The position numbers were made by a program, and so were the translations under genes. DNA of 64,000 nucleotides, taken from positions 372,001-436,000 of the forward strand of contig NZ_JACYTQ010000002.1 of the NCBI RefSeq assembly GCF_014841125.1, read 5' to 3'. Position 1 is the stretch's first letter; every line of letters begins with the position of its first letter. Shown here in pieces: positions 22,341-41,365 of this stretch. The stretch comes from Echinicola arenosa (lineage in GTDB: Bacteria > Bacteroidota > Bacteroidia > Cytophagales > Cyclobacteriaceae). The notes beneath the pieces are model-generated. The model was given only the letters and a program-made list of their open reading frames with translations. It searched no databases and was not told the origin of the DNA.

Positions 22341-22368
22341 TTCTCGCTCTTTTACTGACAATTATTTC

Positions 22369-22998
22369 ATGGATATTTCTGCAACGGTTCTGATCATCAT
22401 CATTACTGCTATCAGTTCCTTTTACGGATGGAAAAACTACGGCTTTCTGAGTCGAAGTATGTTTAACCCTTATTTGATCAACAGCAACAAGGAATTTGAT
22501 CGTTTCATACTATCGGGTTTTGTTCACAAGGATGCCGTGCATCTGCTCTTCAATATGATTACCTTTTACTTCTTTGGTAGTTTAGTAGAACAGTACCTGA
22601 CTTACCGATTTGGTTTCTTCCCTGGAGTGGCGATATTTATCTTATTCTATCTGGGCGCCTTGGCAATATCAGATATTCCCACATACCTTAAGCACAAGTC
22701 CAATCCCAACTACCAAGCCCTGGGAGCCTCTGGAGGAACTGCGGCGGCTGTTTTTGCCAGCATTATCCTCATGCCCATGCAAGACATCTGTCTCTTTGGT
22801 ATCCTTTGCTTGCCTGGTTTCATTCTTGGGATTATTTTCTTGGGGTACTCTGCAATTAAGAGCAAGCAGGACAATGACAGCATCAACCATGATGCGCACC
22901 TTTACGGTGCCTTATTCGGGATTATCTTTATATTAATCTTAAGCCCAGGAAGTGCCGTTCACTTTTTCGATCAAGTAAAAAATTACAGTTTGTTTTAG
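22369..22998 (+). CDS. rhomboid family intramembrane serine protease
   Basis: A six-helix membrane protease that cuts transmembrane substrates. The catalytic Ser lies in LGASGGTAAAVFA (GxSG motif), and the catalytic His in the last helix is in NHDAHLYGALFG. HLLFNMITFYFFG is the conserved HxxxN region of the second helix. I prefer the ATG at 22369, directly before a membrane helix (ISATVLIIIITAISSFYGW), over the TTG at 22324 that overlaps the previous gene. It ends the rnr-led cluster and is followed by a strong terminator. Confidence 0.93.
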   Translation: MDISATVLIIIITAISSFYGWKNYGFLSRSMFNPYLINSNKEFDRFILSGFVHKDAVHLLFNMITFYFFGSLVEQYLTYRFGFFPGVAIFILFYLGALAISDIPTYLKHKSNPNYQALGASGGTAAAVFASIILMPMQDICLFGILCLPGFILGIIFLGYSAIKSKQDNDSINHDAHLYGALFGIIFILILSPGSAVHFFDQVKNYSLF

Positions 22999-23002
22999 TA
23001 AG

Positions 23003-23044
23003 CCAAAGGCCTGATGTCAAACATCAGGCCTTTGGTCTTATTTT
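23003..23044 (+). terminator. intrinsic terminator after the rhomboid gene
   Basis: A perfect 14-bp stem (23003-23016 with 23022-23035) and a 5-base loop, followed by TCTTATTTT on the plus strand. It also lies just past the stop of the minus-strand DUF5107 gene, but no U tract follows it on that strand. Confidence 0.8.
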
Positions 23045-23066
23045 AACTTATCCTCTTAGATACAAA

Positions 23067-26009
23067 TTAAAACATTCTTTGATCTGCTTCGAAGGACAAA
23101 GATTTGATTTCTTTAATTAAAGATTTTTCATCGATTCTTTCTTTTCCCAATCCTTCTTGAGGAATATTGCCTTTCAATCCTGAAGTAACCATTTTTTGGG
23201 TCACAATTTGTTTCAGGGAATTTTCTAACTTATCATTTATAAGTTCAGGGTAAGGCCGTCCCACACCTAAATTGTTTGGCCATAATTTGATTTCCTCTAT
23301 CTTATTCAACGCTTTTGAATATTCTCCCTCCTCCAATGCCTGATAGGCCAGCATCATCTTGGTCTGACGATAATATTTTCTAGCGTCAGTAGCTCCTTCA
23401 AATGGCAATACCTTTATTTCATTTAGAATTCTCTCAGCATCTAAGTATTGATCTATCTTCATGAGCCCCTTTACTAACTCCAAGCCCACTACATAGTTAG
23501 TGTTATTTTCTTTGTAAGTATTTTGTATAACCTTTACTGATTCTTCCTTTTTTCCTTGTTGACTTAGTAATGCTGCCAGTATTTTCTGATACCTCCACTC
23601 CTTTGGATCAATGGCAATAGCCTGTTCTGCATATGCTACTTTTTCTTCAATGGTTGCAGATTCTTGAATCCTTATCTGAAGGACATGATAAGGAGCAAAG
23701 TCAACTCTTTCACTTCCCATCAGTGCTGCTGCTTCTTTTCTATTTCCCCTAAAATCATGGATCAAAGCCAATAAATACTTTGGTTTCCAAGACGATTCTT
23801 TGTTTGAGGCCCATTCCAATACTTTTACTGACTCTTCTCTGAAAGGGAAAACATATGCCAAATCTGCTTTTTCCGCCTCTCTAAAGAAAGCATCAGACCT
23901 AGGAGTTTCCTTAGTCAGCCAAGCCAGCCAATATAAAATTTCTGCGTTTTTTGGAGCTAACTCCAACACTCCTATACTTTCCTGTAACCGACCAACCGAT
24001 GCATACCAGATCCCCAATTCCAAAAAAGTTTCATGGGCAAGCTCGCTTTTGATCAAACTTACAAAATCAGCTTTTTTAGCATCATCTTTATTATGAAAAT
24101 ATTGTTCAAATCTGATAAAGTGGTCTAAAGGGTTTAATTCAACCAATTTACTCTCGATTTCTTCTTTGCCCAATTGTTTATTCTCTAATCTGTATAATAA
24201 ATACAAAATCCGAAGTGCTTCTATATTAGATGAATTTTGCACCATTGCCTTCATAGCCATATCTCTTGAACCTATCAAGTTATGTTTCTTTAAATTTAAC
24301 TTGCTCAGTGCAGTATATGCAGCGTTCCTAAATTGAGGAGACAAGCTCGCCACTTCAAAACCATCCATAGCATCATAATCCAAAGAAAGACGGTCAGCAA
24401 TAAGTCCATAATAATAATTTGCTTCCGGATCATAGGTATCAATACTCAATGCCTGTTTTACATAAGTAAAAGCAGCGTCGTAATTCATACGATAAAGCTT
24501 TAACTTCGCCATTTCTACCAATGCAGGAATATAGGTATCGTTCTTTTCCAGAGCAGTCTCTAGTTTTTGCTCAGCCAAAAGATAATCCCTAAAACGATAA
24601 AGGTCTCGAGCCTGCATATACAGCCCATAAGCACTCTCAGCATCATAGTTTTCGGCTATTTTTAGCGGTCTACTTAAACTTTTCTTCCTGTCCTTTTGAA
24701 GATCAACTCTCTGACCACCTAATTCCAAATATGAAATCTGATTGGCATTAGGACAAACCAAAACATGATTGATCGTGGAAAGAGGCTTTGAGTCAATAAG
24801 CTCAGCAGCCAATATTTCTCCGGCACTATTGAAAATCTTCAAGGTATCTTTCACCGCTTTGACAGGGCTAAAGGCAAACCTTACCTCACTTTCTTCAATT
24901 TGTATATTATAAGCCCCTAATAAATTGGCATGAGTAAAGCCTTCCATATCCCCAAAGGAATACCAATATTCTGTCCATTTTTCAGCTGCATAAGGTAAAA
25001 AGCCTATCTGCTTGAAGGGGGTAAAACTGCTATTAAATACATTTTGGTTAAAAAGGCGGCCACTTTGAATCTCCACATACTGCCCACTATGGTCTGTCAG
25101 TAAATCCTCCCAGATTTTCCCTTGATCAGACTGTGCCCAGAGGAATATCTTCTTACCCAACTTATCCTCTCTATTGGAATATCGAATCATCCCAAAGTCA
25201 GCTAGTTCCCAACGGGCTCCAAAATAGCTACTATGAGCTCCTGTTACGTGGTATGACTTTGATCCTCCGAAATCATTATTTGAATATCGAGAGAGATCTT
25301 TTCCTTGCTCATCAATGGGCCAATCATGTGCTTTTCCATCATGACCAATATAGTGTGTACCTGGGTATAAAAACGTCAAATCATCACTTGCAGGAATACC
25401 TGCATTCATCCATGTATAATAAGGCTGTTCATTACCTGTCGAATTAAACCAAAAAGATTTTGTACTAAAATAAGCTTTGTCTTTTTCCAATTTAATTTCC
25501 AGTACCCATCGGGTCCTGGTCAATAAGTCCAGAGTGCTGACAAAACAACTTTGACTTCCATCACTGTTTTCTTTCAAAAGATAATCCACTGAAGTAGCAC
25601 TGTTTGGCGTATGGCCTATGGTTCCGTAATTTGCCTCTATACCACCACTTACCCATGGACCTCTCATGGCAATATCCCTAAACTTCACTACTTCATTGTT
25701 GTAAAGAAAATACTTCTGATGAACCTTATCATAAGCAGTCCAAACCTTTCCTCCTATTTCAGGCATGATTTGTACCTTAATAAAATCATTCTCCAACTCT
25801 ACTACTTTCCACTTTTTAACTGTCCCTTCGTCAGTAAAACCATCAAAACGAAAATAGGGGTAAAGCTTTTTATCTGCAGGAACTGGATCAGGATCTGAGA
25901 ATGGATAAGTAACATACTCTTTTAAAAACTCCCTTGACCTGACAGTTTCTTGTGCGATAGAAAAGTGTACAAGAAACATCAGGAAAAACCCCATCGCCAT
26001 TCTACTCAT
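23067..26009 (-). CDS. DUF5107 domain and TPR-repeat exported protein
   Basis: An approximately 980-residue exported protein. The N-terminal half matches DUF5107: ENDFIKVQIMPEIGGKVWTA, RGPWVSGGIEANYG, IGHTPNSATSVDYLL and PYYTWMNAGIPASDD, a beta-sandwich related in fold to galactose mutarotases. The C-terminal half is a long run of TPR-like helices (NYYYGLIADRLSLDYDAMDG). I place the start at 26009, where MSRMAMGFFLMFLVHF opens a signal peptide two bases after the DUF6067 stop; an in-frame ATG also exists at 26033. It is the last gene of the SusCD operon. The family probably binds or acts on sugars, but no activity is established. Confidence 0.82.
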   Translation of the reverse strand: MSRMAMGFFLMFLVHFSIAQETVRSREFLKEYVTYPFSDPDPVPADKKLYPYFRFDGFTDEGTVKKWKVVELENDFIKVQIMPEIGGKVWTAYDKVHQKYFLYNNEVVKFRDIAMRGPWVSGGIEANYGTIGHTPNSATSVDYLLKENSDGSQSCFVSTLDLLTRTRWVLEIKLEKDKAYFSTKSFWFNSTGNEQPYYTWMNAGIPASDDLTFLYPGTHYIGHDGKAHDWPIDEQGKDLSRYSNNDFGGSKSYHVTGAHSSYFGARWELADFGMIRYSNREDKLGKKIFLWAQSDQGKIWEDLLTDHSGQYVEIQSGRLFNQNVFNSSFTPFKQIGFLPYAAEKWTEYWYSFGDMEGFTHANLLGAYNIQIEESEVRFAFSPVKAVKDTLKIFNSAGEILAAELIDSKPLSTINHVLVCPNANQISYLELGGQRVDLQKDRKKSLSRPLKIAENYDAESAYGLYMQARDLYRFRDYLLAEQKLETALEKNDTYIPALVEMAKLKLYRMNYDAAFTYVKQALSIDTYDPEANYYYGLIADRLSLDYDAMDGFEVASLSPQFRNAAYTALSKLNLKKHNLIGSRDMAMKAMVQNSSNIEALRILYLLYRLENKQLGKEEIESKLVELNPLDHFIRFEQYFHNKDDAKKADFVSLIKSELAHETFLELGIWYASVGRLQESIGVLELAPKNAEILYWLAWLTKETPRSDAFFREAEKADLAYVFPFREESVKVLEWASNKESSWKPKYLLALIHDFRGNRKEAAALMGSERVDFAPYHVLQIRIQESATIEEKVAYAEQAIAIDPKEWRYQKILAALLSQQGKKEESVKVIQNTYKENNTNYVVGLELVKGLMKIDQYLDAERILNEIKVLPFEGATDARKYYRQTKMMLAYQALEEGEYSKALNKIEEIKLWPNNLGVGRPYPELINDKLENSLKQIVTQKMVTSGLKGNIPQEGLGKERIDEKSLIKEIKSLSFEADQRMF

Positions 26010-26011
26010 GA

Positions 26012-29005
26012 CTATTCTATTACGAGCATCCATCCTTTATTCTTTTCTACAGGTATTTGATCTGAAACATCAAAAGTTTTGGAAGGCTGGAAACCTTGTA
26101 TCTCAGGAGCGCTGATTTTAATCTTATTAGGGTCTATTCCTAAACTTTTCCAGTCAATTTCTAACTTAATTCTAACATCGTCCTCTGCCCAGCTGGCTAC
26201 GGACACCAAGGCTTTCCCTTCTTTCTTGTACACAGTTGCCAATACCTTCTCATGATTTGTTTTCACTGGACTATCACTTACCCAATAACCAATCATATTA
26301 ACGCCTTCCATACCAAAGTCATCCCAGGCTTTCCAAATATGATCCGGCCTTTCTTCTTGGTAAGGCATTCTATTAGTCATACCATACAACATTCCTCGCC
26401 AAGGGTTTCCTCCATCTTGGAGCATCTCCCCCATCAGTCCAAATGGAATCCCACTAACTTCAGTCAAATAAAATTCAGGACTACCTTTTTCATAGTCAAA
26501 ATACTCACCAAACCACAAGCGATTGATATAAGGAAAATGTTCCATGTATAAATTTGCACTGTTGTTGTAACCATCACGCTCATTATATTGATTAGCTGAA
26601 TGAAGATCAATCAAACCAGGGTGTCCCTGTTTTGTAAGAACCCTTTTAATTCTCTTCATAGTAATACGATCAAAAGCAACATCATCTAAGTATATTCCAT
26701 CTATCCCAATATTTTGTACCAACCAGTTCATCCCCTCTACATAGTAATTATGCCAGCGGTTCATGCCACTATTAATTATAGCAGCATCCTTAAAGCGTGG
26801 TACATACCATGCCGCAATATAATTTCGTTGAAGATGTTCTTGCAGCCATGAGAAACCTCCACCGTTTCCTTCTGAAAAAACTTCATGATTAAGACTCCTT
26901 AGCGGATACAGCTCATAGAGTCGGTTGGAAACCTCACGAACGGTATTGTATATTTTCACCTTTAAACCTCTTTCATGAGCAGCATCAATGTATGCCTTCA
27001 TTTCTTTTGTTGCAATAAAAGGATAGTTGATGTAAGGATTGATTTCATTTGCGTGATGGATATTAACAATGCTAGCCCCGCTTTTTACCACTGTATCCAC
27101 GGGTTGATAGGCGTGATAATAACGATCTCTCCATTGGTCATCGGTCTGCAAGGTATGAAAAGGAGTAATCAATAAAGTGAAATTAAAATACAGAGTATCG
27201 CCAATCTCCATTTTTCTATCGCCACTATAATGATGGACATTCAAAACATCACCATCTTCTACCATACTGATTCCTCCTTTATTATCATTCCCCCATGAGA
27301 GAGGTAATTTTAGAGGCTTTTGTAAATAAAAATTTGTATTCAGTGGCCGTTCATAATGCTGATCTCGTAGACTCAACTGCATACCTGAGTTTACGGACCC
27401 TAACCACCATCCGTCTTGGTTTTTATGGGCTACATCCCATTTCCAGTCAATCTTCCTGGGTGTATGCTGACCTTTATAGCCCAAGCCTAACATATACTTT
27501 GATGAAGTTTTATAAACTGGTATATCTAAGGCAATATCTTTTAGCTCTACATCTTGAAGTGCTACTACTTTTATTTCAAAATTCGCAAAGCCATCAAACT
27601 CAAGAGATCCATTGATTACTATTTCCAATTCTTGGGACTTCCCAATAGACTTCCAAGAAACCTTTCCTTCCTCCAGGTCTTTAAAAACTGGCCCAGAATA
27701 ATCAGCTACCATATGTTGACCATTCTCCTTCAAGATATTTAAGGAAAATGGATCTGCAATCATGTCTTTTGCTTCTTTAGAAATAGAGGTCATTTCCTCT
27801 GCAAAAAAACTCTGAATTTGTGCCGGTAATCCGTTTGAACCCAACCATACCTTTCGCCCTAGCAAAGATATAGTATGACCTTCCACTTTCAACGGAATAT
27901 AAGGTGCTATTACAGAGTTTTCCTGGGCCAAAGTGGAATTAAGCCAATTTAATCGGGTTTGTTTCCATGGTTCATTGACTCCTCCATTGATCGCTTTCTT
28001 TTGGGAAACAATAAGCTCAACAGGAATTTCTGTTGGGGCTTGTCCTTCAGGCAAGATGGTTACTGCACCACTATACTTAGCCGCAGAATTATTATCGGGA
28101 ATCGTTATGCCACACCATAAAGCCTGTATTTTACCTTCCTCAACATCAACTGTTTTGGAAAAAGACTTTCCGGTGTAATCGACTCCTTCTTTGTTGAAAC
28201 AAGTAAAGTTTTCAAGGGGCAGAACATCACCATTTTCAGACTTAAATTTTGAAAAGGTAACCTTTATATTTTTCAAAGCTTGATCTTTAGCCCAGAGCCC
28301 AAGTTGAAAAGTGTAATTCTCTTTAATACATACTTCTCTGCTAAATGTTGACTCCAAAGTTGAGACCGCCCACTTTTGAGGTAGATAATCCTTCATTTTG
28401 ATTGGATTATCCCTATCCTCCGGAAAAACCAAATAGCTTTTATCTCTATGCTTTGCCCTAAATGCTTCAACTTCTTTCTGCGTAGCAATAATTTCCATTG
28501 GTTTGTTGCTGTTAAAATCATCAACAGCTTCAAGGCGAAGAACTTTTACATCGTTTTCATTACTTAACCTAAGTTGCTTCTCATTTGTCTTATTGGTGAT
28601 TTGCTCCTCATAGACCACATCCGGATAATTCCTCCTTCCCACTACCTTATAAGGTAAATAATAAATGTAGAATATTCCCTTTCGTCCAGAAGTAGTAAAG
28701 GTAATTTTCCCTTTCTCTGGACTCATGCTATCGATAAGCACCTCTTCTACCATGTTCTGGGTAGTACTATCCACCACGTATACTTTTTGCTGAGATGTTA
28801 CATTTCTATTTCTCCATTCCACCTCCACCGTTACCTGATCCGCTATTTTGTTTACAAGTACTACTGCCCTTTGATTTCCCAATGAATCGGCATCCCACAA
28901 CTCTTGCTGTGGAGGATAAATATGTTGCTGAGCATGTGCATTTTCTACATAAAAAGTGTACTGAATGATAAATAGTAGAAGTATTATTGAATAATATCTA
29001 TTCAT
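26012..29005 (-). CDS. DUF6067/GH123-like glycoside hydrolase domain protein
   Basis: A 997-residue exported protein with signal peptide (IILLLFIIQYTFYVENAHAQ). The N-terminal 500 residues are beta-rich and include a LLGRKVWLGSNGLPAQIQSF block. The C-terminal part looks like a TIM barrel of the GH13/GH31/GH123 kind, with AHERGLKVKIYNTVREVSN, DGIYLDDVAFDR, HPGLIDLHSANQ and LWFGEYFDYEKGSPEFYL. It resembles proteins annotated as DUF6067 or GH123-related. The position where a barrel enzyme would carry acid residues reads LDD. Predicted periplasmic glycan processing, but catalytic competence is unproven. It lies 3 bases downstream of the arylsulfotransferase gene. Confidence 0.75.
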   Translation of the reverse strand: MNRYYSIILLLFIIQYTFYVENAHAQQHIYPPQQELWDADSLGNQRAVVLVNKIADQVTVEVEWRNRNVTSQQKVYVVDSTTQNMVEEVLIDSMSPEKGKITFTTSGRKGIFYIYYLPYKVVGRRNYPDVVYEEQITNKTNEKQLRLSNENDVKVLRLEAVDDFNSNKPMEIIATQKEVEAFRAKHRDKSYLVFPEDRDNPIKMKDYLPQKWAVSTLESTFSREVCIKENYTFQLGLWAKDQALKNIKVTFSKFKSENGDVLPLENFTCFNKEGVDYTGKSFSKTVDVEEGKIQALWCGITIPDNNSAAKYSGAVTILPEGQAPTEIPVELIVSQKKAINGGVNEPWKQTRLNWLNSTLAQENSVIAPYIPLKVEGHTISLLGRKVWLGSNGLPAQIQSFFAEEMTSISKEAKDMIADPFSLNILKENGQHMVADYSGPVFKDLEEGKVSWKSIGKSQELEIVINGSLEFDGFANFEIKVVALQDVELKDIALDIPVYKTSSKYMLGLGYKGQHTPRKIDWKWDVAHKNQDGWWLGSVNSGMQLSLRDQHYERPLNTNFYLQKPLKLPLSWGNDNKGGISMVEDGDVLNVHHYSGDRKMEIGDTLYFNFTLLITPFHTLQTDDQWRDRYYHAYQPVDTVVKSGASIVNIHHANEINPYINYPFIATKEMKAYIDAAHERGLKVKIYNTVREVSNRLYELYPLRSLNHEVFSEGNGGGFSWLQEHLQRNYIAAWYVPRFKDAAIINSGMNRWHNYYVEGMNWLVQNIGIDGIYLDDVAFDRITMKRIKRVLTKQGHPGLIDLHSANQYNERDGYNNSANLYMEHFPYINRLWFGEYFDYEKGSPEFYLTEVSGIPFGLMGEMLQDGGNPWRGMLYGMTNRMPYQEERPDHIWKAWDDFGMEGVNMIGYWVSDSPVKTNHEKVLATVYKKEGKALVSVASWAEDDVRIKLEIDWKSLGIDPNKIKISAPEIQGFQPSKTFDVSDQIPVEKNKGWMLVIE

Positions 29006-29008
29006 GAT

Positions 29009-30505
29009 TTATTGATCAATTTTGAAGTAATCACTCCATAAAGTCGCAGGAATATATTCTGCCCTGTATGGAATAAAATGTGAATTAAGTGTCCAAAGTA
29101 CTTCTCCATTCTGGTTACTTATGGCCACTTTTCCAGTTTTCGAAATGGTTTGGAGGATATAGTCATTAGGCATCAAAAAGGCACTTCCCATTCTGGATGT
29201 ATAATACTCTTTTGGAAGTATGTTATCTATTTGTACTTCGGCCTTCATTTGTTCAGTGTCTAATTTAAAGGCCAAGCTTCTGGAAACTTTGTTGACTTTA
29301 CTGGTATCATTTGGTGAAAAATCACCATTATCAAAGAGCATCAAATCACCATTTCTGTTAATGTATACGGAATGCTGAAAATAAAAATAAGAGCTTGAAT
29401 CCATCTCAAAATCTCCTCCCTTTCCTAACTTCCAGATTATTTCACCGCTTTTGGAGTCTACCTTCCAAACTTGGTTTTCGATTGGTGTGGAAAGTAAATA
29501 ATTCCCATCAGTGTCCAAATTCACAGAATTAAAATGAAAACGATCTCCTGCATATTCTTTGATTTTTATATCCTTGGAAATATCCCATACATTCCACGCT
29601 GACCATTTGTCCAAAACATTTCCCAAAGTATCCATAATCATTACACCATCTCCCCACAAAGTATCAATTTTGGTTGGAGTATCTGGTAGATCGTAAAGCT
29701 TATAATCTCTATAGATACTCATGATTTTATGATCATCAGTCATTCGAAGATCATGGTGAAAGACAATACCTTTTTCTTCCAAATTGGTTCTCCAGAGAAC
29801 ATTCCCTTCTAAATCGATCTCTGCTATCTCTGTCCCTCCCACAAAGCCTATCTTACCAGTTCGCAAATAGTAACTCGCCACTCCTTTATTATCTCCTTTT
29901 TCAGGTTTCTTGAATTCATCTTTTCGAGCAGGAGCAAGCAAAGCTAATATGGTATTTCTCGGAGTAATGGTAGCCAAGCGTACACCAAGGTTCTTATCTT
30001 GCCAATACCATCGTATTGTCCCTTCTCCATCCACCATCGAGATATATCCAGGGTACCCCCTATAGCATAACATCACTAAGCCATCGCCCATTGCTGTTTT
30101 GTCATGAGGCTTATCTTCCTTGATCCATTCATGGATCATCCACGAAGAGGCCTCTCTTGTCTGAAAAGACAATACATCAGTGGATTGATCAATCCATCCA
30201 TCTATGACAATCCTATATTCATAGGTAGTACCAGGCTCCAGAAGGAGAAGGTGGACCAAATGGTCCACCTTTACTTCACTAATCGGAGTGGTATACTTCA
30301 CATCATCTCCTTTTTTCCAATATTCCACTTTCAGTGGGGATGCTTCACTTAATGATATTGATAAATCCTCTTTAAGTGCAGAATTTTCTGGAGAGACCAG
30401 TTCAACTTTCGTAATCCTGATATTATGATTTGAGTAGTATACAAACCCAAAACACGTCAACAAGCCAAGGCAAGTAATGACAATAGCTAATCCTGTCTTT
30501 TTCAT
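29009..30505 (-). CDS. arylsulfotransferase (ASST) family protein
   Basis: ASST enzymes move sulfuryl groups from aryl sulfates to phenolic acceptors in the periplasm, without PAPS. The 498 residues show an N-terminal membrane anchor or signal (AIVITCLGLLTCFGFVYY), a fibronectin-like beta domain (LLLEPGTTYEYRIVIDGWID), then a six-bladed propeller of repeats such as ISMVDGEGTIRWYWQDKN and GEIIWKLGKGGDF. Candidate active-site histidines are in FHHDLRMTDD, DRFHFNSVNL and YFYFQHSVYINRNGD. From memory of E. coli ASST, an Arg is expected near YLLSTPIENQVWKV; none is there. So the fold is fairly sure and the reaction is not. It is the third gene from SusC, between SusD and DUF6067. Confidence 0.78.
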   Translation of the reverse strand: MKKTGLAIVITCLGLLTCFGFVYYSNHNIRITKVELVSPENSALKEDLSISLSEASPLKVEYWKKGDDVKYTTPISEVKVDHLVHLLLLEPGTTYEYRIVIDGWIDQSTDVLSFQTREASSWMIHEWIKEDKPHDKTAMGDGLVMLCYRGYPGYISMVDGEGTIRWYWQDKNLGVRLATITPRNTILALLAPARKDEFKKPEKGDNKGVASYYLRTGKIGFVGGTEIAEIDLEGNVLWRTNLEEKGIVFHHDLRMTDDHKIMSIYRDYKLYDLPDTPTKIDTLWGDGVMIMDTLGNVLDKWSAWNVWDISKDIKIKEYAGDRFHFNSVNLDTDGNYLLSTPIENQVWKVDSKSGEIIWKLGKGGDFEMDSSSYFYFQHSVYINRNGDLMLFDNGDFSPNDTSKVNKVSRSLAFKLDTEQMKAEVQIDNILPKEYYTSRMGSAFLMPNDYILQTISKTGKVAISNQNGEVLWTLNSHFIPYRAEYIPATLWSDYFKIDQ

Positions 30506-30520
30506 TAATTTATCAACTTC

Positions 30521-32068
30521 TTATGGCAATCTTGAGGCATTTTCTGCAGCCATTTCGTTATGAATCATTGTCTCCACCAAAGGGTAAGGGAAATAACGCA
30601 TGTTTGAAGTTACGATGGGCTCCATTCCTCTTTGACTGAGGTAGTCATTACATACTTCTTCAAACCTTCCCAGTCGAATGAGGTCTGCCCTTCGATGGTA
30701 TTCAAAAACTAACTCAAACCCGCGTTCATCAACCAAAGCATCAATCATTTCTTCTTTAGAAGAAGGAGCAACAAACTCCGGACTACTGCCATAAGCTGGA
30801 GCTCCTGCACGTGTTCTTATTTCATTGAGATAAGGTAAGGCAGCAGCAGGACCAGAAAGTGCATTTTCAATCTCTGCCTTGCATAATATTATATCTGCCA
30901 TTCTGAAAACCTGAATCGTCCTTCCATCCAAATAGGAATTGGAAACCATTTCATAAGAATACTTTTTGGTTGAAACATTTTGTAGCAACCTAGTAGTATC
31001 ATTAGGAGGGGTATTTTCTCCTACATCTGGCATTTTATAAAAGAAGCCATTTGAAGTGGTGCCATCCCTTGCAGCAAGTCCCTCATAGTCAAAATAAAAG
31101 AAGTCTTTTCTTGGATCCGAATCGGAGTACTTTCTCCAAAAAGGAAGAGATACCGCATAGTATTGCCACCTATTCTGTACTTCTTTATGATCACTTGGGC
31201 CAAAGTGATTGGTGATTTCTCCTCCATTTTGAGCAGATTCATGAAAAATCCCAAAAATCAACCCCATATCAATCTTATTATTGTCAGACCACTCATTCTT
31301 GAAATCAGGATTTAGCGCATAATATCCCTCATCCCGAAGTTCCAAAACTTGATCAATGTAGATTTTGGCATTGGTATAATCATGAGCTCTCATATATACC
31401 TTACCTAAAAGTGTAAGGGCAGCTCCTTTACTTGCTCTTCCAATACCGTACTCGGCTGCCCACTCTTCAGGAAGGTGTTCTATGGCAAACTTACAATCCT
31501 CAATGATCAGTTGATCAACTTCCTCAACTGATGACAAAGGGTAATTAACGGTTTCTGTGGGATTCTCCGCTGTGGTGATCAAAGGTACTGGTCCCCAAGA
31601 ATCGGTCAAATCACGATAGGAAAGAGCCCTCAAAAACCGCGCTTGAGCTTTAATCTCATTCCTTTTTGACTCCTCCATCTCCACATCATCAATTTTAGAG
31701 AGCAAAATATTGGCATTACTGATGACCTCATACATATTGTTCCAGTTTAACCGAAAATATCGATTGTTGTCATCATAAGTGAAATTACTCATTTTGGTAG
31801 GGTCTCCTGCGGCAGTGGAAAATCCCATATCTGCCGCATAATCAGTAATCATAACCAAATAACCTGCATAGTATAAATAAGCGTCTCCTGGATAAGGTTT
31901 TAACTTCGCATATGTACCTGTCAATGCTGCTTCTACATCACTTTCAGTGCTGTAAGCATTTTTTGTGGTGAGGTCACTATATAGTTCGGGTTCCAAATTG
32001 GTGCAAGACACAATCAAAGAAGCAACTATACCCGTATAAGTGAAATTGATATATTTCTTAAAATTCAT
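30521..32068 (-). CDS. SusD/RagB family nutrient-binding outer-membrane lipoprotein
   Basis: Surface lipoprotein that captures the ligand and closes over the SusC barrel. The 515 residues start with a lipoprotein signal (GIVASLIVSCTNLEPELY, lipobox VSC). SusD features follow: TESDVEAALTGTYAKLKPY, NNMYEVISNANILLSKID, ARFLRALSYRDLTDSWGPVP and the C-terminal ERGFELVFEYHRRADLIRLG. TPR-like helices give the scaffold. It follows SusC by 11 bases and precedes the ASST gene by 15, so all are one transcript. The ligand is unknown; the neighbours suggest a sulfated or aromatic glycoconjugate. Confidence 0.96.
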   Translation of the reverse strand: MNFKKYINFTYTGIVASLIVSCTNLEPELYSDLTTKNAYSTESDVEAALTGTYAKLKPYPGDAYLYYAGYLVMITDYAADMGFSTAAGDPTKMSNFTYDDNNRYFRLNWNNMYEVISNANILLSKIDDVEMEESKRNEIKAQARFLRALSYRDLTDSWGPVPLITTAENPTETVNYPLSSVEEVDQLIIEDCKFAIEHLPEEWAAEYGIGRASKGAALTLLGKVYMRAHDYTNAKIYIDQVLELRDEGYYALNPDFKNEWSDNNKIDMGLIFGIFHESAQNGGEITNHFGPSDHKEVQNRWQYYAVSLPFWRKYSDSDPRKDFFYFDYEGLAARDGTTSNGFFYKMPDVGENTPPNDTTRLLQNVSTKKYSYEMVSNSYLDGRTIQVFRMADIILCKAEIENALSGPAAALPYLNEIRTRAGAPAYGSSPEFVAPSSKEEMIDALVDERGFELVFEYHRRADLIRLGRFEEVCNDYLSQRGMEPIVTSNMRYFPYPLVETMIHNEMAAENASRLP

Positions 32069-32079
32069 GATATTCCTTT

Positions 32080-35000
32080 TTAAAATTTAGCACTAATTCC
32101 AATGGTAAATGTCCTCATGCTTGGATAGGAATTGAAATCCAGTCCTGCACCGGCATTGGCCGACTGTGCATTTCCACCATATTTGACCAAATTGTCATTC
32201 TCATAACCTTTGGTATCCACCTCCGGATCCCAACCTGAATACCCACTGATAGTGAAGAGATTCTCACCCATGGCATAAACTCTGATGGATTGAACTGCAT
32301 TTGACTGAAGAGGTATATTATAACCTAATGTTACATTTCTCAAGCGCAAAAATGAGGCATCCTCTATGAAGTGATCATTGATATAACCTCCATATTGGGA
32401 ATAGAAAAAGCCGTTTCTAGGAATATCAGTATCTGTATTTTCTGGAGTCCATCGATTAAGTGATTCAGCTGTCCTGTTCCACTCCAAGTTCATTCTTGTC
32501 ATGTTCAACAAGTCATTACCGACTTTTCCGTAAAAGAATAGTGATAAATCAAAATTCTTGTACATGAAACTATTATTGAAACCAAATGTGAATTTAGGAT
32601 ATGCCGAGCCTATTATTCCTCGGTCTGCAGAAGTAATCAGACCATCACCATTGAGATCTTCAAACATTGGATCACCGGCTTTTGAATTAGGCTGTGGAGC
32701 ATATGTTTCTCCTTCTTGAAGCACACCTACGTATTTGTACCCATAGAGTGAACCAAGAGGTTTTCCTTCTTGAATGATAGCGTAGCTTTCTTCAGAGACA
32801 TTTCCTATTGGCTTTGAAGAGGTCAACAAAATCTCGCTTTGATCTCCAAGGCTAAGTACTTTATTTTTGTTTATGGCAAAATTTAAACCCGTCTTCCAAG
32901 AGAACTGATTATTAGTGGGAACTTGATATTCCATATTAAACTCTAAACCCTTATTCTCAGTGGCCCCTACATTGCTAAGTCCAGATGCATATCCAGAATA
33001 CTTCGGAAGATTAACTCTTATCAGCAAATTGTCAGTTCGCTTATAATATCCATCTATGTTAAATTTCAAGCGATTATCCAACAAACTAAAGTCAAGCCCA
33101 GCATTGAATTGATCTGTAGTTTCCCACTTCAATTTACTATTCTCTGGAGAAGAGCTATTTAGAAAGGTACCTGCGGTATTGTTTACCCCATCAAAAGTGT
33201 ATCTAGCTGTTGATACCAAACCATAAGATGCATAATTCCCTATTCGCTCATTACCAGTACGGCCATAACCTGCTCTGAATTTTAAATCAGAAAATAGGGA
33301 TTGGTTTTCCATGAAACTTTCATCGATAACTCTCCAAGCAAAAGAGCCCGAAGGAAATATACCCCATTTATTATCCTCACCAAACCTAGATGAACCATCA
33401 GACCTAACGGTAAAGGTAAAGAGGTACTTATCGTCCAAGGAATAGTTGGCTCTGCCAAAGAAGGATATTAATATATTTTCAGTCTTGCTTGAACTGACTC
33501 CAGTTATGGTCGAGGCAGCACCTACATTGTTATATCCATAAAGATCTGTCGAGAACCCATAAACATTAATTCCATTGCTTTCATTGATGTATTTCTCGTA
33601 AGAGTAGCCTCCCATTACTTGAAGTGCATGGCGCTCTTTGATCAATTTTTCGTAGGTAACAAATATATCAAACAAATTATGGGTCAATGAATAATTGGAG
33701 AGGTTAGCAACCCCATCGTTAATTCCTCCTTGATAAGAATCTTTGGAAAGATATCCTCCCAAGCGGTCTTCTCTTATTTCTGTACCTGCATCCATTCTAG
33801 CCTTAAGCCCTTTTGCCAAGTTTAACTCCAAAAACATGGAACCGTTCAATTTACTTTTTTGTACATCATTTTGTCGGGCTGTAAGGTTGGCCAATGGGTT
33901 ATCTCCTCGTCCTCCTGGTGGGCGTGCAAAGGAGCCATCCTGATTATAGACTGGCACAGTGGGGTCATAAGTCAAAATGCTATAAAGCACGTTTGAATTC
34001 AAAATGTTACCATCATAAACCTGATAATTGGAATTTTCCCGCTGAGCCATGATGGTCGCACCAGATTTGATAAAGTCATTTATTTCGTGATCCACATTGA
34101 CTCGACCTGATAATCTTGAAAAATTGGTATTCTTCAAGACTCCTTCTTGATCAAAGTACCCAATACTCGTAAGTACCTTGGTTTTTTCGCTTCCTCCAGT
34201 TATTTGCAAACTGTAATTTTGAACTAAACTTCTTCTTGTAGTTGCCTCGATCCAATCGGTACTGACATCAGAGGCCAACTGAGAGGGAGTATAGGCACCG
34301 TTGTTAATATTCTCTTGACCATCTATTTCTTTATATAGATCATTCGCCAAATACATATAATCTTGACCATTCAACATATCAAATGGCACTATTATATTCT
34401 GGGTACTGGTATAGGCATTGACTGCTATATTACCTTGCCCCTCCTTTCCTCTTTTGGTGGTGATCAAAACAACTCCGTTCGCACCCCTTGAACCATAAAT
34501 TGCCGTAGCAGAAGCATCCTTTAATATTTCCATTGAGGCAATATCTTCAGGATTGATATTAATTCCATTATCAGTTGGAAACCCATCCACAACATATAAG
34601 GGTTCATTGGAACTACTTACGGAGTTTGCCCCCCTAATTCTAATTGACATGCTTCCTCCAGGAGCCTTAGAATTTTGAGTAACGACTACCCCTGAAGCTC
34701 TACCTTGAATAGCCTGAGCCACATTACTCACAGTACCTCCAGAAGTCAAATCATCAGCATTCAAGGATGAGATTGCTCCTGTCAGGTCACTTTTTTTCTG
34801 CGAACCATATCCAACGACCACCACTTCATCCAACTGAGCCGCGTCTTCTTGTAAGACAATATTGAAAACCTCTTGATTGCCTACCAATATTTCCTTAGTA
34901 ACATAACCCACAAAAGAAACCACCAAAGTTGCATTCTCAGGCACATCCAGTGAAAATTTCCCATCGATATCCGTGGCGGTACCTATAGTTCTCCCTTTCA

Positions 35001-35475
35001 CCAATATGGTGGCCCCTGGTATTGAATTTCCTCTTTCATCCAGTACGCTTCCTGTAATTTTTACGTTTTCAATAAACGCTTCAGGGACAGCGGACTTGGA
35101 AAATAGACTTGCATCCCTGATTTGGACTGAAATATTTTCATTGACCTGCTTAAATGAAAGCCCGCTTTGCTCTGCTATTTTGTACAGTATCTTGGAAAGC
35201 GTCTCATTTTTCGAAACAAGACTGATCCTTGAAGGGTTATCATTAAACAGTGATTTGTTGAAATGATAGGTAAAACTAAGTCCACTCTTTTGTTCAATTT
35301 CCTTGAATACATGACTTAAGTCTTCATTTTCCAACTCCAATGAAATCCTTATTTTATCAATACTTTGAGCATCTGACGTTTTAGCCAGAAGAATTCCGGA
35401 AAAAAGACTTGTGATAAAGAGTATTAAGAATGAGTTTACAGTCATCCTAAATAATTTAAATAAATAGTTTTTCAT
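32080..35475 (-). CDS. SusC/RagA family TonB-linked outer-membrane transporter with STN domain
   Basis: TonB-dependent importer of about 1130 residues. I start it at 35475 (MKNYLFKLFRMTVNSF); the frame is open to 35526 but the extra residues do not look like a signal. Order: signal peptide, STN domain (about 35-110, SLELENEDLSHVFKEIEQKS), carboxypeptidase-like regulatory domain (ITGSVLDERGNSIPGATILV), plug with the SusC signature DASATAIYGSRGANGVVLIT, then a 22-strand barrel ending in SYPSMRTFTIGISAKF. The STN domain marks it as a transducer that signals through FecR to the FecI-type sigma factor, both encoded just upstream. A 10-bp inverted repeat lies in its leader. Confidence 0.96.
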   Translation of the reverse strand: MKNYLFKLFRMTVNSFLILFITSLFSGILLAKTSDAQSIDKIRISLELENEDLSHVFKEIEQKSGLSFTYHFNKSLFNDNPSRISLVSKNETLSKILYKIAEQSGLSFKQVNENISVQIRDASLFSKSAVPEAFIENVKITGSVLDERGNSIPGATILVKGRTIGTATDIDGKFSLDVPENATLVVSFVGYVTKEILVGNQEVFNIVLQEDAAQLDEVVVVGYGSQKKSDLTGAISSLNADDLTSGGTVSNVAQAIQGRASGVVVTQNSKAPGGSMSIRIRGANSVSSSNEPLYVVDGFPTDNGININPEDIASMEILKDASATAIYGSRGANGVVLITTKRGKEGQGNIAVNAYTSTQNIIVPFDMLNGQDYMYLANDLYKEIDGQENINNGAYTPSQLASDVSTDWIEATTRRSLVQNYSLQITGGSEKTKVLTSIGYFDQEGVLKNTNFSRLSGRVNVDHEINDFIKSGATIMAQRENSNYQVYDGNILNSNVLYSILTYDPTVPVYNQDGSFARPPGGRGDNPLANLTARQNDVQKSKLNGSMFLELNLAKGLKARMDAGTEIREDRLGGYLSKDSYQGGINDGVANLSNYSLTHNLFDIFVTYEKLIKERHALQVMGGYSYEKYINESNGINVYGFSTDLYGYNNVGAASTITGVSSSKTENILISFFGRANYSLDDKYLFTFTVRSDGSSRFGEDNKWGIFPSGSFAWRVIDESFMENQSLFSDLKFRAGYGRTGNERIGNYASYGLVSTARYTFDGVNNTAGTFLNSSSPENSKLKWETTDQFNAGLDFSLLDNRLKFNIDGYYKRTDNLLIRVNLPKYSGYASGLSNVGATENKGLEFNMEYQVPTNNQFSWKTGLNFAINKNKVLSLGDQSEILLTSSKPIGNVSEESYAIIQEGKPLGSLYGYKYVGVLQEGETYAPQPNSKAGDPMFEDLNGDGLITSADRGIIGSAYPKFTFGFNNSFMYKNFDLSLFFYGKVGNDLLNMTRMNLEWNRTAESLNRWTPENTDTDIPRNGFFYSQYGGYINDHFIEDASFLRLRNVTLGYNIPLQSNAVQSIRVYAMGENLFTISGYSGWDPEVDTKGYENDNLVKYGGNAQSANAGAGLDFNSYPSMRTFTIGISAKF

Positions 35476-35513
35476 ATTTTTGTAGTGGTTTGAATGTAAC
35501 AATTCGACTAACA

Positions 35514-35550
35514 GGACTGTTAACACTGATTCGACCCGGTTTAACAGTCC
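35514..35550 (-). promoter_or_regulatory. inverted repeat in the SusC leader
   Basis: Perfect 10-bp arms at 35514-35523 and 35541-35550 (GGACTGTTAA and its complement) flank a 17-base loop, 39 bases upstream of the SusC start and 22 bases past the FecR stop. No U tract follows on the minus strand, so an RNA stability or attenuation element, or a dimeric protein site, fits better than a terminator. Confidence 0.5.
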
Positions 35551-35572
35551 TTATTTATTTTTCATAGGCACT

Positions 35573-36631
35573 TTACATATTTTGACAATTCCCTCCTTTG
35601 ATTACAATTTTTTTGGATCGACTATCAATCTCGTATTCAAAACCCAAAGCATACTGCAAGGAAATCAATACATTATCCAAACTTTCATTGTGGTATTTAC
35701 CTTGAATTATGCAGCGGTTAGTTTGGGGAGATTGATTTTCTATCTCTACACCATACCATCTTTCGAGTTCAAATAGAACTTTTGAAAAAGGATCCTTATC
35801 AAAAAGTAATGTTTTATCTTTCCACATGGCTATCTGAGAAGCATCAACTTTCCCCACCTTAATCGTTTCTTCTTCTTTATGAAACGACGCCATTTCTCCA
35901 GGAATCAAAATGGCACGCTGATCCCTAGAATTTTGAGAAGAATCTGAAGCAATTACTTGTACTTTTCCTGTAACCACCGAAACGGCGATATTATCTTCAT
36001 TTTCAAATGAGTTTATATTAAATGAAGTACCAAGCACCTTCGTGGTTACTCTACCTGTGTGCACCATAAAAGGCCTTTCTTCATCTCTTGTTACTTCAAA
36101 AAAAGCTTCTCCCTCAAGCCATATCTCCCGCTTTTCATTCGCAAAGAATTCAGGATAGCTCAGTTGGCTACTTGAATTTAACCACACAATGGAACCATCC
36201 GGTAAATGGATCTTACTCTTCTTACCAGAAGGGTTACTCTTAGTGTTTAAAGCTACTACAGAATTACTTTTAAAATCACTGGTAGACCTATTATCAGGCA
36301 GAAGCTTGTAGAATGCAAATGAAAGCGTTAAAAACAAAAGCAAAACAGCAGCACGGCTAACCCAAAATCCTATGTTTCTTGTTTTCGGAACAAGCTTATT
36401 TTCGCTTTGTATAATTTGTCGCTTTAAACGGCCAAAGACTAGCTCTTTGGATTCTTTTTCATACTCACTTAGTTGAAACTGATCTTGCTCGGGATCCATA
36501 CGCGCAACCAAGGTTTTGTAAGCCTCCATTCCCTTTTGGGTCTGTAATATTTCAAAAACTTGATTGACTTCATCCTGATTACATTTATTAAGGAGAAATT
36601 TCTGTAATAAGTAATACTCTTGATGCTTCAT
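35573..36631 (-). CDS. FecR family anti-sigma factor
   Basis: Membrane-spanning regulator that holds the ECF sigma factor until the STN domain of SusC signals. The 352 residues show a cytoplasmic N-terminal helical domain (LLQKFLLNKCNQDEVNQVFE), a membrane helix (AAVLLLFLTLSFAFYKLL, near 95-112), the periplasmic FecR domain (IHLPDGSIVWLNSSSQLSYP; EAFFEVTRDEERPFMVHTG; VLGTSFNINSF), and a C-terminal DUF4974 (CIIQGKYHNESLDNVLISLQ), the secretin-like domain typical of Bacteroidota FecR. It lies between the sigma gene and SusC, the usual order. Confidence 0.95.
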   Translation of the reverse strand: MKHQEYYLLQKFLLNKCNQDEVNQVFEILQTQKGMEAYKTLVARMDPEQDQFQLSEYEKESKELVFGRLKRQIIQSENKLVPKTRNIGFWVSRAAVLLLFLTLSFAFYKLLPDNRSTSDFKSNSVVALNTKSNPSGKKSKIHLPDGSIVWLNSSSQLSYPEFFANEKREIWLEGEAFFEVTRDEERPFMVHTGRVTTKVLGTSFNINSFENEDNIAVSVVTGKVQVIASDSSQNSRDQRAILIPGEMASFHKEEETIKVGKVDASQIAMWKDKTLLFDKDPFSKVLFELERWYGVEIENQSPQTNRCIIQGKYHNESLDNVLISLQYALGFEYEIDSRSKKIVIKGGNCQNM

Positions 36632-36845
36632 TTATATTCTGATTGTATATATTATTACAGAAAATAGACAAAGTCCATATACTCCTTTACAAAATATTTT
36701 TTTTTAAATCTTTATCGATATCCGATTAACTGCTTAGTCAAAAAAGATATATGGAAAATGTTTTTTTATTACAAAGTATATTTACAAAATAATATATTAA
36801 AACAACAACATCCACTGTGCCAATTCAAAAGAAAACTCACCTTTA

Positions 36846-37445
36846 CTAGACACTAAAAAATAGACTTAATATCATTAAAATTATAGAAACACCTAGCTTA
36901 ATTAATCTCTCCAAACTCCTATTGGCCTTGATAATATGACTATTTACTGTCCCTTTAGAAATCCCCAAAATATCCGCTGCTTCCTCGTATGATTTCCCTT
37001 CCAACTTGCATAAACGGAAAACTTTCTGTCTCACAGGTGGAAGTTTAGCAACAGCGATATTAAAGCTATTTTCAAATTCCCTTTGAATTAGGACATCTTC
37101 AGGCCCACTTTCCAAACTGGATAATTGAGAGTCAGTAATTTCTCTTAAAAGAACTGGTTTTTTTGCGGCTTTATCCAATAGGTTGAGGACATGGTTTTTG
37201 CAAATTTTGTATAAAAATGGGCTGATTGATCTATCTTCCTGTACACGTTCTCGGCTATTCCATAATTTAAGAAAAACATCATGTACCGCCTCCTCTGCTA
37301 GCTCTTTTGATTTAAGAAATTTCAAGGCATACCTGTACAATGAAGGAAAAAAATGATCATATAATGCTCTGAAAGCAACTTCACTTCCTTTTTTGAAAGA
37401 AATCAACAGAAGCTTTTCATCAAAGTTGGTGTTTTCAACTGACAT
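36846..37445 (-). CDS. FecI-type ECF RNA polymerase sigma factor
   Basis: Extracytoplasmic-function sigma factor of the Bacteroidota expansion family that activates the adjacent SusC/D genes. I take the ATG at 37445 (MSVENTNFDEKLL) rather than 37484, because region 2 starts shortly after it. Region 2 includes LYRYALKFLKSKELAEEAVH and LWNSRERV; region 4 is PPVRQKVFRLCKLEGKSYEE through LGISKGTVNSHIIKANRSL, a helix-turn-helix. Unusually, it ends with a hydrophobic stretch (LGVSIILMILSLFFSV), which could anchor it to the membrane. The gap to FecR is 214 bases and has no gene. Confidence 0.93.
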   Translation of the reverse strand: MSVENTNFDEKLLLISFKKGSEVAFRALYDHFFPSLYRYALKFLKSKELAEEAVHDVFLKLWNSRERVQEDRSISPFLYKICKNHVLNLLDKAAKKPVLLREITDSQLSSLESGPEDVLIQREFENSFNIAVAKLPPVRQKVFRLCKLEGKSYEEAADILGISKGTVNSHIIKANRSLERLIKLGVSIILMILSLFFSV

Positions 37446-37854
37446 GTTTCGTATTCTAAAGAAGGCAACCTTAAGATATGGCACCTGAGCGGATGGACAC
37501 TAAAATAATCTCCATTATCCATTTAGTTCTTGGACACCTTGATCTATTAGCAATGATAGACAAGTAACGCTGAACACTTCTTACCTAAACAAAGCAAAAT
37601 GTGTTTTGGCAACCATAAATGGAATATAAAAAACATCATTAAATAAAAGAAACTTTTAATAAAAAAATGATAAGAATTCGAAAAAAATATATTGTTTTAA
37701 TAAAGTAATGTGCTAGTTATTGATATGTTTCTAATGTATATGGAAGATTTTTCTTGTCACCGTTTCATTCAATTTACTAGGTATAACTAATATCAACTTC
37801 AAAAAAGTCCTCTCTCGAAATAGTCAAGAGAGGGCCGCAAATATATTCCACTTT
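37446..37854. other. intergenic region between galT and the ECF sigma gene
   Basis: A 409-base, very AT-rich spacer. It holds the terminator of the gal operon at 37801-37834 and presumably the promoter of the sigma gene, which I could not pin down; no exact TAnnTTTG on the minus strand was noticed close to it. No RNA gene or ORF is convincing. Confidence 0.4.
37801..37834 (-). terminator. intrinsic terminator of the galactose operon
   Basis: A 7-bp stem (37809-37815 with 37827-37833) which on the minus strand is followed by ACTTTTTT. It lies 21 bases past the galT stop. Confidence 0.7.
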
Positions 37855-38904
37855 TTATTTACCAGTTTTATAATGCTCCTTCGGTTGGCTTTTTAGAATT
37901 TTTACGGCTGATTCAGCGGTGATGTCCCTTTGTGGATTAGCTAGCATCTCATAGCCTACCATAAACTTCTTAACCGTGGCAGAACGTAATAATGGCGGAT
38001 AAAAAACCATGTGCAAGTCCCACTCTGGATGGTCTTTCCCGTCGGTCATGGCCTGATGGATTCCAGCCGAATAAGGAAAGGACACCTTAAAAACGTTATC
38101 ATACATAATGGTCAACTGACGATAAGCATCCGCCAATGCTTCCATTTGTGCTTCATCCATTTCTGCCAAAGAGGCAATATGGGTTTTGGGAGCTATCATG
38201 GCCTCAAAAGGCCACACTGCCCAGAAAGGAACCAAGCCTACAAAATATTCATTTTCAAAAAGGATTCGTTCGTTTTTCTTCAACTCTTCTTGTACATAAT
38301 CCACCACCATGCTTCGTCCATATTTCTCAAAATACTGAGAAAACTTCTGCTGCTTTTTTGCTGGTTCTACAGGTACAGATTCTTGCGCCCAGATCTGTCC
38401 ATGTGGGTGTGGGTTGGAGCACCCCATTACTGAACCCTTATTCTCAAAAATCTGAACGTAATTGATGAAATCCTTTCCGCCCAAACCAAGGTATTCCGCT
38501 TTCCACAACTCCACCACCTTGGTAATTGCCTGCACATCCAACTCTGGAATGGTCAAGTCATGTCGCGGAGAAAAACAAATCACCTTGCATATGCCCCGCT
38601 CACTTTTGGCTTTGAAAAACTCTCCTTCTGACAATTCCCCTTCTGGAATATCAGCAGTCAAGGCGCCAAAATCATTTTGAAAAACAAAGCTTCCTTGATA
38701 ATCTGGATTTAGCTCCCCGTTCACTCGGGTATTGGTGGGGCAAAGGTAACAAGCTTCATCATAGGCCACCTTCTTCTCCTCAGCAGTATTTTCTTCCTGA
38801 CCTTGCCATGGTCGCTTCCCTCGATGTGGAGAAACCTGAAGCCAGTCACCAGTGAATGGGTTGTACCTCCTGTGACTGTGGTCTTCAAAGTTAAAATCTG
38901 ACAT
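37855..38904 (-). CDS. galT: galactose-1-phosphate uridylyltransferase
   Basis: Leloir-pathway enzyme that exchanges UMP between UDP-glucose and galactose-1-phosphate. The 349 residues carry the HxH active site in NPHPHGQIWAQ, the Zn-site CYLCPTN, RRYNPFTGDWLQVSPHRGKR near the N-terminus, and EWDLHMVFYPPLLRSATVKK toward the end. Length is normal. It is the last gene of the galM-galK-galT cluster, 110 bases after galK, and is followed by a terminator. Confidence 0.97.
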   Translation of the reverse strand: MSDFNFEDHSHRRYNPFTGDWLQVSPHRGKRPWQGQEENTAEEKKVAYDEACYLCPTNTRVNGELNPDYQGSFVFQNDFGALTADIPEGELSEGEFFKAKSERGICKVICFSPRHDLTIPELDVQAITKVVELWKAEYLGLGGKDFINYVQIFENKGSVMGCSNPHPHGQIWAQESVPVEPAKKQQKFSQYFEKYGRSMVVDYVQEELKKNERILFENEYFVGLVPFWAVWPFEAMIAPKTHIASLAEMDEAQMEALADAYRQLTIMYDNVFKVSFPYSAGIHQAMTDGKDHPEWDLHMVFYPPLLRSATVKKFMVGYEMLANPQRDITAESAVKILKSQPKEHYKTGK

Positions 38905-39014
38905 AATTCAATTCTAGGTATAAATAGGTTTAATAGTATTTCTTATTTTTTTAACATGGACCTAAACGTCATAAACTGAGATTAAAGTCTCTTAACAAGC
39001 ATTGATGCTCTGCC

Positions 39015-40169: not shown

Positions 40170-40186
40170 GGTAATCTATATTTGCT

Positions 40187-41266: not shown

Positions 41267-41365
41267 AGAAGTCAGGTTTATTAATTGACAATTTTGATTT
41301 TTAGAAATGCCAAATTAATAGATTAAAAAATGTAATTCGGGGCAATGAAGACTTATTTTTGAAAA

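Follow-up and report, generated by a model that had tools for sequence, protein, structure and literature searches.

Most sulfotransferases that act independently of 3'-phosphoadenosine-5'-phosphosulfate (PAPS) have poorly understood physiological roles and natural acceptors, according to the sections of PMC13426309 drawn on here. One described setting is caprazamycin biosynthesis, in which a PAPS-dependent sulfotransferase makes a phenolic sulfate that then serves as donor for an enzyme of the arylsulfotransferase (ASST) type, as set out in the part of PMC4257720 used here; this two-step sulfation is carried out by Cpz8 and then Cpz4, the latter treated in those sections of PMC13426309. The same sections also describe a Bacteroidota example, BvAST of Bacteroides vulgatus, from a genome that additionally has a predicted PAPS-dependent sulfotransferase. 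Here we present an analysis of an operon in Echinicola arenosa that places an ASST-fold protein directly behind a SusC/SusD importer. The window is a 64,000-nucleotide stretch of contig NZ_JACYTQ010000002.1 (assembly GCF_014841125.1, positions 372,001 to 436,000, forward strand), and the operon occupies its positions 23067-37445. The interpretation that we favour, and that we hold at about even confidence, is that this locus is a FecI/FecR-switched SusCD cassette belonging to a wider Bacteroidota family of SusCD-ASST loci that would couple import to periplasmic sulfuryl transfer.

The locus comprises seven genes on the minus strand. These encode a FecI-type extracytoplasmic function (ECF) sigma factor (36846..37445; TIGR02985 at 133.5 bits against a cut-off of 126.4, with PF04542 and PF08281), a FecR-type anti-sigma regulator (35573..36631; PF04773 at E 2e-19 and PF16344 at E 1.5e-15), a SusC/RagA TonB-dependent transporter with an N-terminal extension (32080..35475; TIGR04056 at 918 bits), a SusD lipoprotein (30521..32068; PF14322 at E 1.8e-25 and PF07980 at E 5.3e-22), the ASST-fold protein (29009..30505; PF05935 at E 3.4e-30, 105.7 bits against a cut-off of 24.2, and the sole PF05935 match in the genome), a GH123_N protein (26012..29005; PF19543 over residues 36-997 of 997, 1414 bits) and a protein with a DUF5107 domain followed by tetratricopeptide repeats (TPR) (23067..26033; PF17128 at E 3.7e-110, with a match to 5cd6 at E 2.1e-20). 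An ATG start was taken for FecI, the open frame of which reaches a GTG at 37484, and likewise for SusC at 35475, where the frame is open from a GTG at 35526. By eye, the ASST, GH123_N and DUF5107 proteins each begin with a hydrophobic segment of the export type. SusC and SusD are adjacent, the arrangement that defines a SusCD utilisation locus, and PF19543, which we take to be the family formerly named DUF6067, is the only carbohydrate-enzyme-type family in the operon, with a putative catalytic role. An earlier note on this DNA had proposed this seven-gene order, which the gene calls and the Pfam and TIGRFAM matches bear out. It had also given gaps of 2 to 15 bases from SusC onwards; the intergenic gaps are 214 (FecI-FecR), 97 (FecR-SusC), 11 (SusC-SusD), 15 (SusD-ASST) and 3 bases (ASST-GH123_N), and the GH123_N and DUF5107 genes overlap by 22 bases, so the figure stands for three of these junctions and not for the last. 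Its assignment of an STN domain to SusC has partial backing: residues 63-132 match FecR_C below the threshold (19.3 bits, cut-off 24.4), and at E 0.01 none of the Pfam matches is to an STN model. The note's statement that there is no sulfatase agrees with the family scan of the 20 genes between 15.6 and 47 kb, in which none was reported, and its statement that there is no clear classical hydrolase is fair, as similarity of the PF19543 protein to solved GH123 enzymes is confined to an N-terminal stretch.

The breadth of this arrangement was assessed by searching for ASST proteins at E 0.001 in partly overlapping genome samples, with matches, many of them weak in the class sample, in 6 of 59 relatives, 35 of 395 class genomes, 37 of 251 genomes of family f60, 33 of 295 genomes of the window's own family (f1) and 13 of 149 genomes of family f73. 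Gene neighbourhoods were taken for part of these matches: 20 stretches from the relatives and the class sample (5 and 14 genomes), 36 of the 37 matching f60 genomes (the other, G287, was already in the set), 20 stretches from 19 of the 33 matching f1 genomes (some of the rest were already in the set) and 6 of the 13 matching f73 genomes, plus G158, already in the set. A total of 85 ASST genes encoding more than 300 residues, the window's included, were classified by BLAST against a reference set, and 70 of these (69 loci, L043 having two) have SusC or SusD in the stretch while 15 do not. The counts exclude L067-L069 (flanks or overlaps of included loci) and L132-L140 (congener gal sites); L048, L060 and L062-L066 have no gene classed as ASST, and L143-L144 were taken for other genes. 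With no stretch longer than 21.5 kb, and with short contigs among them, absences of partners are to be read as lower bounds, and a partner within a stretch is not always in the same operon; at L043, for example, a sulfotransferase/ChrA pair lies about 5 kb away.

In the surveyed loci the ASST is the constant partner of SusCD, with SusD directly upstream of it for 53 of the 70 SusCD-linked genes. The gene order of the window, which we call architecture A (FecI-FecR-SusC-SusD-ASST-GH123_N-DUF5107), is found at 13 loci (the window, L041, L042, L096-L101, L103-L105 and L131), and again in Arenibacter sp. 6A1 (L061; ASST 70% identity) with the sigma factor gene on the opposite strand. A further locus of the window's family, L106, falls in the same ASST clade as architecture A and runs on one strand through FecI, FecR, SusC, SusD, ASST, a sulfotransferase, GH123_N and ChrA, the sulfotransferase thus lying between ASST and GH123_N and no DUF5107 gene being seen. 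Architecture B (SusC-SusD-ASST-cytochrome c-GH123_N) accounts for eight loci (L046, L047, L070-L075), four of them with DUF5107, and at L073 and L074 other genes separate cytochrome c from GH123_N. L075 is the fullest of these, with sulfotransferase, CysQ-like, adenosine 5'-phosphosulfate (APS) kinase, SusC, SusD, ASST, cytochrome c, GH123_N and DUF5107 genes on one strand. Architecture C (ChrA, sulfotransferase, CysQ-like, APS kinase, SusC, SusD, ASST; L076-L083) holds all four sulfur genes in eight of eight loci, and architecture D (SusD-ASST-ChrA-sulfotransferase; L084-L094) comprises 11 loci with a CysQ-like gene in 10, APS kinase in nine, a GH16 gene in six and a hybrid two-component regulator in 10, the SusC of L085 lying beyond the contig end. 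In the remaining loci SusCD and ASST either stand without both partner sets or are joined by ChrA and sulfotransferase genes arranged differently.

GH123_N is present in 23 of the 70 SusCD-linked stretches and DUF5107 in 18, all of them within those 23 (0 of 47 without GH123_N). Divergence of the partners follows that of ASST in the GH123_N-bearing loci, with r of 0.97 for SusC, 0.97 for SusD and 0.74 for GH123_N (23 loci each) and 0.82 for DUF5107 (18 loci); none of 2000 permutations reached any of the four values, in a test that does not remove shared descent. The check that the earlier note had proposed, that the ASST, GH123_N and DUF5107 trio be conserved together with SusCD, thus comes out in its favour, with the order recurring at 12 other loci and at L061, and the lone insertion of ASST that it had named as refuting is not what is seen, as the gene lies within a cassette and in a conserved order. 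In the class sample GH123_N stands beside ASST in G000, G158 and G287. As a separate observation on architecture B, a cytochrome c with a SoxA/TsdA-type domain (by Pfam in two, by BLAST in the rest) directly follows ASST in all eight loci (L046:8316-9317, L047:11197-12210, L070-L075), an unexpected redox or sulfur partner.

The genes that accompany ASST elsewhere support a sulfur role for the family, and speak for sulfation as much as for sulfate removal. Within the SusCD-linked stretches a sulfotransferase is found for 36 of 70 ASSTs, ChrA for 35, either for 37, a CysQ-like gene for 20 and APS kinase for 19; for the 15 ASSTs without recognised SusC or SusD the corresponding counts are one sulfotransferase, two ChrA, no CysQ-like gene and no APS kinase, the matches lying in L124 and L126. 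Pfam identities for these sulfur genes were obtained from a few representatives (PF13469, PF02417, PF00459, PF01583) and extended to the rest by BLAST, and both a CysQ function for the PF00459 gene and sulfate as the ChrA cargo are presumed. The loop GTQRSGSNLLR, which we take to bind PAPS, is present in 35 of the 36 sulfotransferases longer than 250 residues, the other (L075) being cut before the loop. At L106 the sulfotransferase matches the sulfotransferase structures 4gox and CurM 4gbm, has no export signal visible by eye and starts within about ten bases of the ASST stop with either start codon. A sulfotransferase or ChrA gene occurs at only two of the 23 loci with GH123_N (L075 and L106), against 35 of 47 without it; the GH123_N set and the sulfur set are therefore for the most part alternatives, found together at these two loci.

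The window ASST retains three active-site His residues of E. coli AssT. Alignment to 3elq places AssT H252, H356, N358 and H436 at window H251, H324, N326 and H378, R374 at P341 and I500-T501 at R438-M439, with a possible one-residue error in the placement of T501; the functions of the aligned residues follow the sections of PMC13426309 cited above. The protein thus matches PF05935 and has the catalytic His and Asn residues, and lacks the Arg374 and Thr501 equivalents. All three His residues are kept in 23 of 23 GH123_N-linked ASSTs. Because the AssT active-site Arg is missing, it would be unsafe to treat the window protein as an ordinary arylsulfate sulfotransferase. On a tree of the ASSTs built by a quick method, architecture A and L106 form one group and architectures B and C another, each with SH-aLRT (Shimodaira-Hasegawa-like approximate likelihood ratio test) support of 100, and the fewest changes required are six for R374, six for Arg438/439 and three for GH123_N.

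The companion GH123_N protein is less easily read. Its N-terminal stretch weakly matches GH123 enzymes (5l7v at E 7.7e-7, 8k2j at E 1.4e-4 and 5fqe at E 2.2e-4). Its C-terminal half gave no credible match when searched as a profile against solved structures, and contains an Asp774-Asp775 pair that is invariant among nine aligned proteins. The GH123 catalytic domain, which we take to be Pfam PF13320 with an Asp-Glu pair, was not reported in the Pfam scan of the window proteins. Two side observations concern other copies of this gene. G009 has a second GH123_N copy (L064:8445-11423), 38% identical and close to a different SusC gene, in a stretch that contains no ASST. In genus g120 the GH123_N gene is full-length at L063 and fragmentary at L065 and L066, within a similar run of small genes, which suggests in-place decay of one copy.

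The seven genes form one cassette, because the congener G007, with flanks 94-95% identical, is without approximately 23043..37866 and has seven bases there instead. Its stretch (L132) aligns to window 13976-23042 at 95.3% and 37867-48685 at 94.2% identity, and the right-hand boundary lies within the final 12 bases of galT, which leaves the true edge uncertain by about that length. The window block is a single, clean presence/absence cassette. In a side observation, both edges (23002-23042 and 37809-37867) carry terminator-like hairpins: one with a 16-pair stem just left of the cassette (23002..23036, plus strand), and one with a 10-pair stem and T run just downstream of galT, inside the right edge (37809..37833, minus strand); the scan overall found 14 hairpins against 9.5 expected. 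Within the genus ASST is present in three of 11 genomes, and the operon's full-length GH123_N in the same three; G009 has the second full-length copy noted above and G005 an additional weak partial match. The galT, galK and galM genes and LacI regulator directly upstream in the window and in G009 might suggest that the seven genes are members of the gal operon next door, or are together merely through chance. All eight congeners without ASST, however, have gal genes with no cassette adjoining; a rhomboid gene stands directly beside galT also in G001, G008 and G005, the last of which bears the operon at another site (L041), and in five congeners without ASST (G002, G003, G004, G006, G010) the galT neighbours differ with no operon adjoining. 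In G005 and Arenibacter, in turn, the cassette stands in a stretch that has no gal genes. From the congener sites without the cassette it follows that the gal genes are a neighbour and not part of the system, a role that these empty sites rule out, and because the order is kept in other genomes and the block is cleanly present or absent, the grouping goes beyond chance. We consider either form of this explanation exceedingly unlikely.

Under the sulfuryl-transfer interpretation that we favour, a ligand at SusCD would switch the operon on through FecR and FecI, and SusCD would bring a glycoside to the periplasm. The ASST-fold protein could then form a sulfo-histidine at H378 and so carry a sulfuryl group between the compound taken up and a molecule of the aryl-sulfate kind; the glycoside might next be processed or bound by the GH123_N and DUF5107-TPR proteins. 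For many relatives a supply of sulfuryl groups from within the cell is probable, with PAPS as the route and APS kinase, sulfotransferase, a CysQ-like phosphatase and a ChrA-type transporter as its parts; the window form, with no such set adjoining, would depend on a donor of external origin or on one made at another place in the cell. An extension of this scheme, which we think very unlikely, is that SusCD-ASST is a sulfate counterpart of group translocation, in which imported, perhaps phenolic, glycosides would be sulfated in the periplasm to trap or mark them. As part of this same extension, the sulfuryl groups would come from cytoplasmic PAPS by way of an exported aryl-sulfate carrier, and the window sub-lineage would have shifted its sulfate-binding Arg to a new loop and adopted an environmental donor.

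Several findings weigh against coupling of import to sulfuryl transfer, and the first group concerns the enzyme itself. The position of window residue 341 is Arg in 37 of 70 SusCD-linked ASSTs and is not Arg in 33, including all 23 with GH123_N; the residue is Pro in 14, Tyr in 13, Phe in four, Ala in one and Asn in one. All 33 have an Arg at 438 (32) or 439 (1), and it may be that an Arg from the loop around the Thr501 position now stands in for the one that lies close to the sulfate in E. coli AssT. The exchange is not a strict swap, as seven of the 37 proteins that keep R374 also have Arg at 438, and three of the 15 ASSTs called without SusCD lack R374 with no other Arg in any of the three. 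On the tree, the association of Arg438 with R374 loss gave three supported independent pairs and a sign test p of 1, and because this test, with three usable pairs, is not significant, we offer Arg relocation as a hypothesis. There is moreover a gap at the second His in six of 70 SusCD-linked ASSTs, all six with neither partner set, and structures predicted from two-row alignments (window plus Arenibacter) reached a mean predicted local distance difference test score (pLDDT) of 38.3 for ASST and 39.0 for the GH123_N protein. A rival proposal is that GH123_N-linked ASST-fold proteins no longer transfer sulfate and that their propeller, with its three His, now binds or cleaves another molecule in an otherwise ordinary glycan locus, whether by lyase or hydrolase activity or by binding alone: R374 is gone in 23 of 23, now Pro, Tyr, Phe or Ala, the T501 position is Met in the window, and neither sulfotransferase nor ChrA is seen in the stretch for 21 of the 23 loci with GH123_N, among them the window's. 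Against this, architecture C shows the same loss (to Tyr) yet keeps the whole sulfur set in eight of eight loci, so that Arg loss need not mean loss of the sulfur role; the idea that it does was set aside on these grounds. GH123_N-linked L106 and L075 carry a sulfotransferase, and the catalytic His and N326 are retained. We judge loss of transfer to be rather doubtful, and would rank sulfuryl transfer in either direction above it.

The second group concerns the source of the sulfuryl group and the constancy of the partners. No PAPS-type sulfotransferase lies beside the window ASST, and in the window genome PF13469 is not matched, PF00685 is matched once, weakly, at another site, and the only ChrA is distant (26% over 351 residues) and adjoins no partner from the reference set. 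Two of the five class-sample genomes with a full-length GH123_N have it without ASST, G171 (L062) and G231 (L063), and neither the second copy in G009 nor the fragments L065 and L066 have an ASST or sulfur partner in the stretch. With no sulfotransferase adjoining, PF13469 absent, PF00685 weak and ChrA distant and alone, an outside donor or desulfation is possible for the window form. The latter would be a sulfatase-free route: a sulfated glycan or aryl sulfate would enter through SusCD, its sulfate would pass by way of the ASST His to a small acceptor, and the GH123_N and DUF5107 proteins would degrade the freed glycan. No sulfatase family was reported in the operon or its scanned neighbours, as this route would have it, and sulfation would require a donor of other origin; some of the cytochrome-type (B) loci have GH109-like and APH-type kinase genes nearby, which hint weakly at amino sugars and would be a weak fit to their breakdown. 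On the other side, the APS kinase, CysQ-like phosphatase and sulfotransferase of the relatives run most naturally towards sulfate-ester synthesis, and the E. coli active-site Arg is changed in the window ASST. Desulfation is in our view a possible, tentative alternative. The earlier note had pictured transfer of sulfate from an imported sulfated or aryl-conjugated compound; the sulfur theme is suggested by the genes of the relatives, while import of a sulfated compound and sulfate removal are not established, and the gene sets fit sulfation at least equally well.

Other genes recur near ASST loci, as observations in their own right. A gene encoding 264-319 amino acids is found near SusD and ASST at L043:12532-13353, L110, L114, L115, L116, L118, L120, L122 and L125, the L043 copy having no Pfam match, and proteins of the FG-GAP/ASPIC-UnbV type (by Pfam at L043, by BLAST in the rest) are encoded near GH123_N-free ASSTs at L043, L107, L108, L111, L113, L122, L124, L125 and L126. 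Elsewhere in the window, at 1254-10599, a LytTR response regulator and a histidine kinase adjoin a resistance-nodulation-division (RND) efflux system with OEP, AcrB and HlyD types.

Among the matches listed in searches of the open-access literature, none describes an ASST within a SusCD locus; the searches did not extend to subscription papers or PULDB, so a database entry may exist. An ASST that is a constant partner of SusCD, often near genes for APS kinase, a CysQ-like phosphatase and a PAPS-type sulfotransferase, offers a concrete setting for testing substrate, donor and direction of transfer. It also points to a possible Bacteroidota route for handling glycan sulfate without a sulfatase, and the members of the SusCD-ASST family that have lost a key Arg form a natural set of active-site variants.

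Set beside the systems described so far, the window locus shares features with several. With E. coli AssT (3elq) the window protein shares the PF05935 fold and matched H252, H356, N358 and catalytic H436, but it has Pro341 for R374 and Met439, with Arg438 beside it, for T501, and its gene lies in a SusCD operon. The comparison with BvAST, also an aryl sulfotransferase of Bacteroidota, is with its published description. The GH123_N protein is like the GH123 beta-N-acetylgalactosaminidases 5l7v, 8k2j and 5fqe in its N-terminal stretch, while its C-terminal half has no match. SusCD polysaccharide utilisation loci likewise have the SusC/SusD pair, FecI/FecR control (with a hybrid two-component system (HTCS) or LacI regulator nearby in relatives) and exported carbohydrate-type proteins, but here the constant extra partner is an ASST rather than a hydrolase, lyase or sulfatase. 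The pairing of a PAPS-type sulfotransferase with an ASST in the window's relatives resembles that of Cpz8 and Cpz4; unlike the caprazamycin system, these Bacteroidota loci add SusCD import and glycan-type genes, and the window locus itself is without the PAPS-type enzyme. The gene content of architectures C and D and of L106 fits the caprazamycin logic with SusCD import added.

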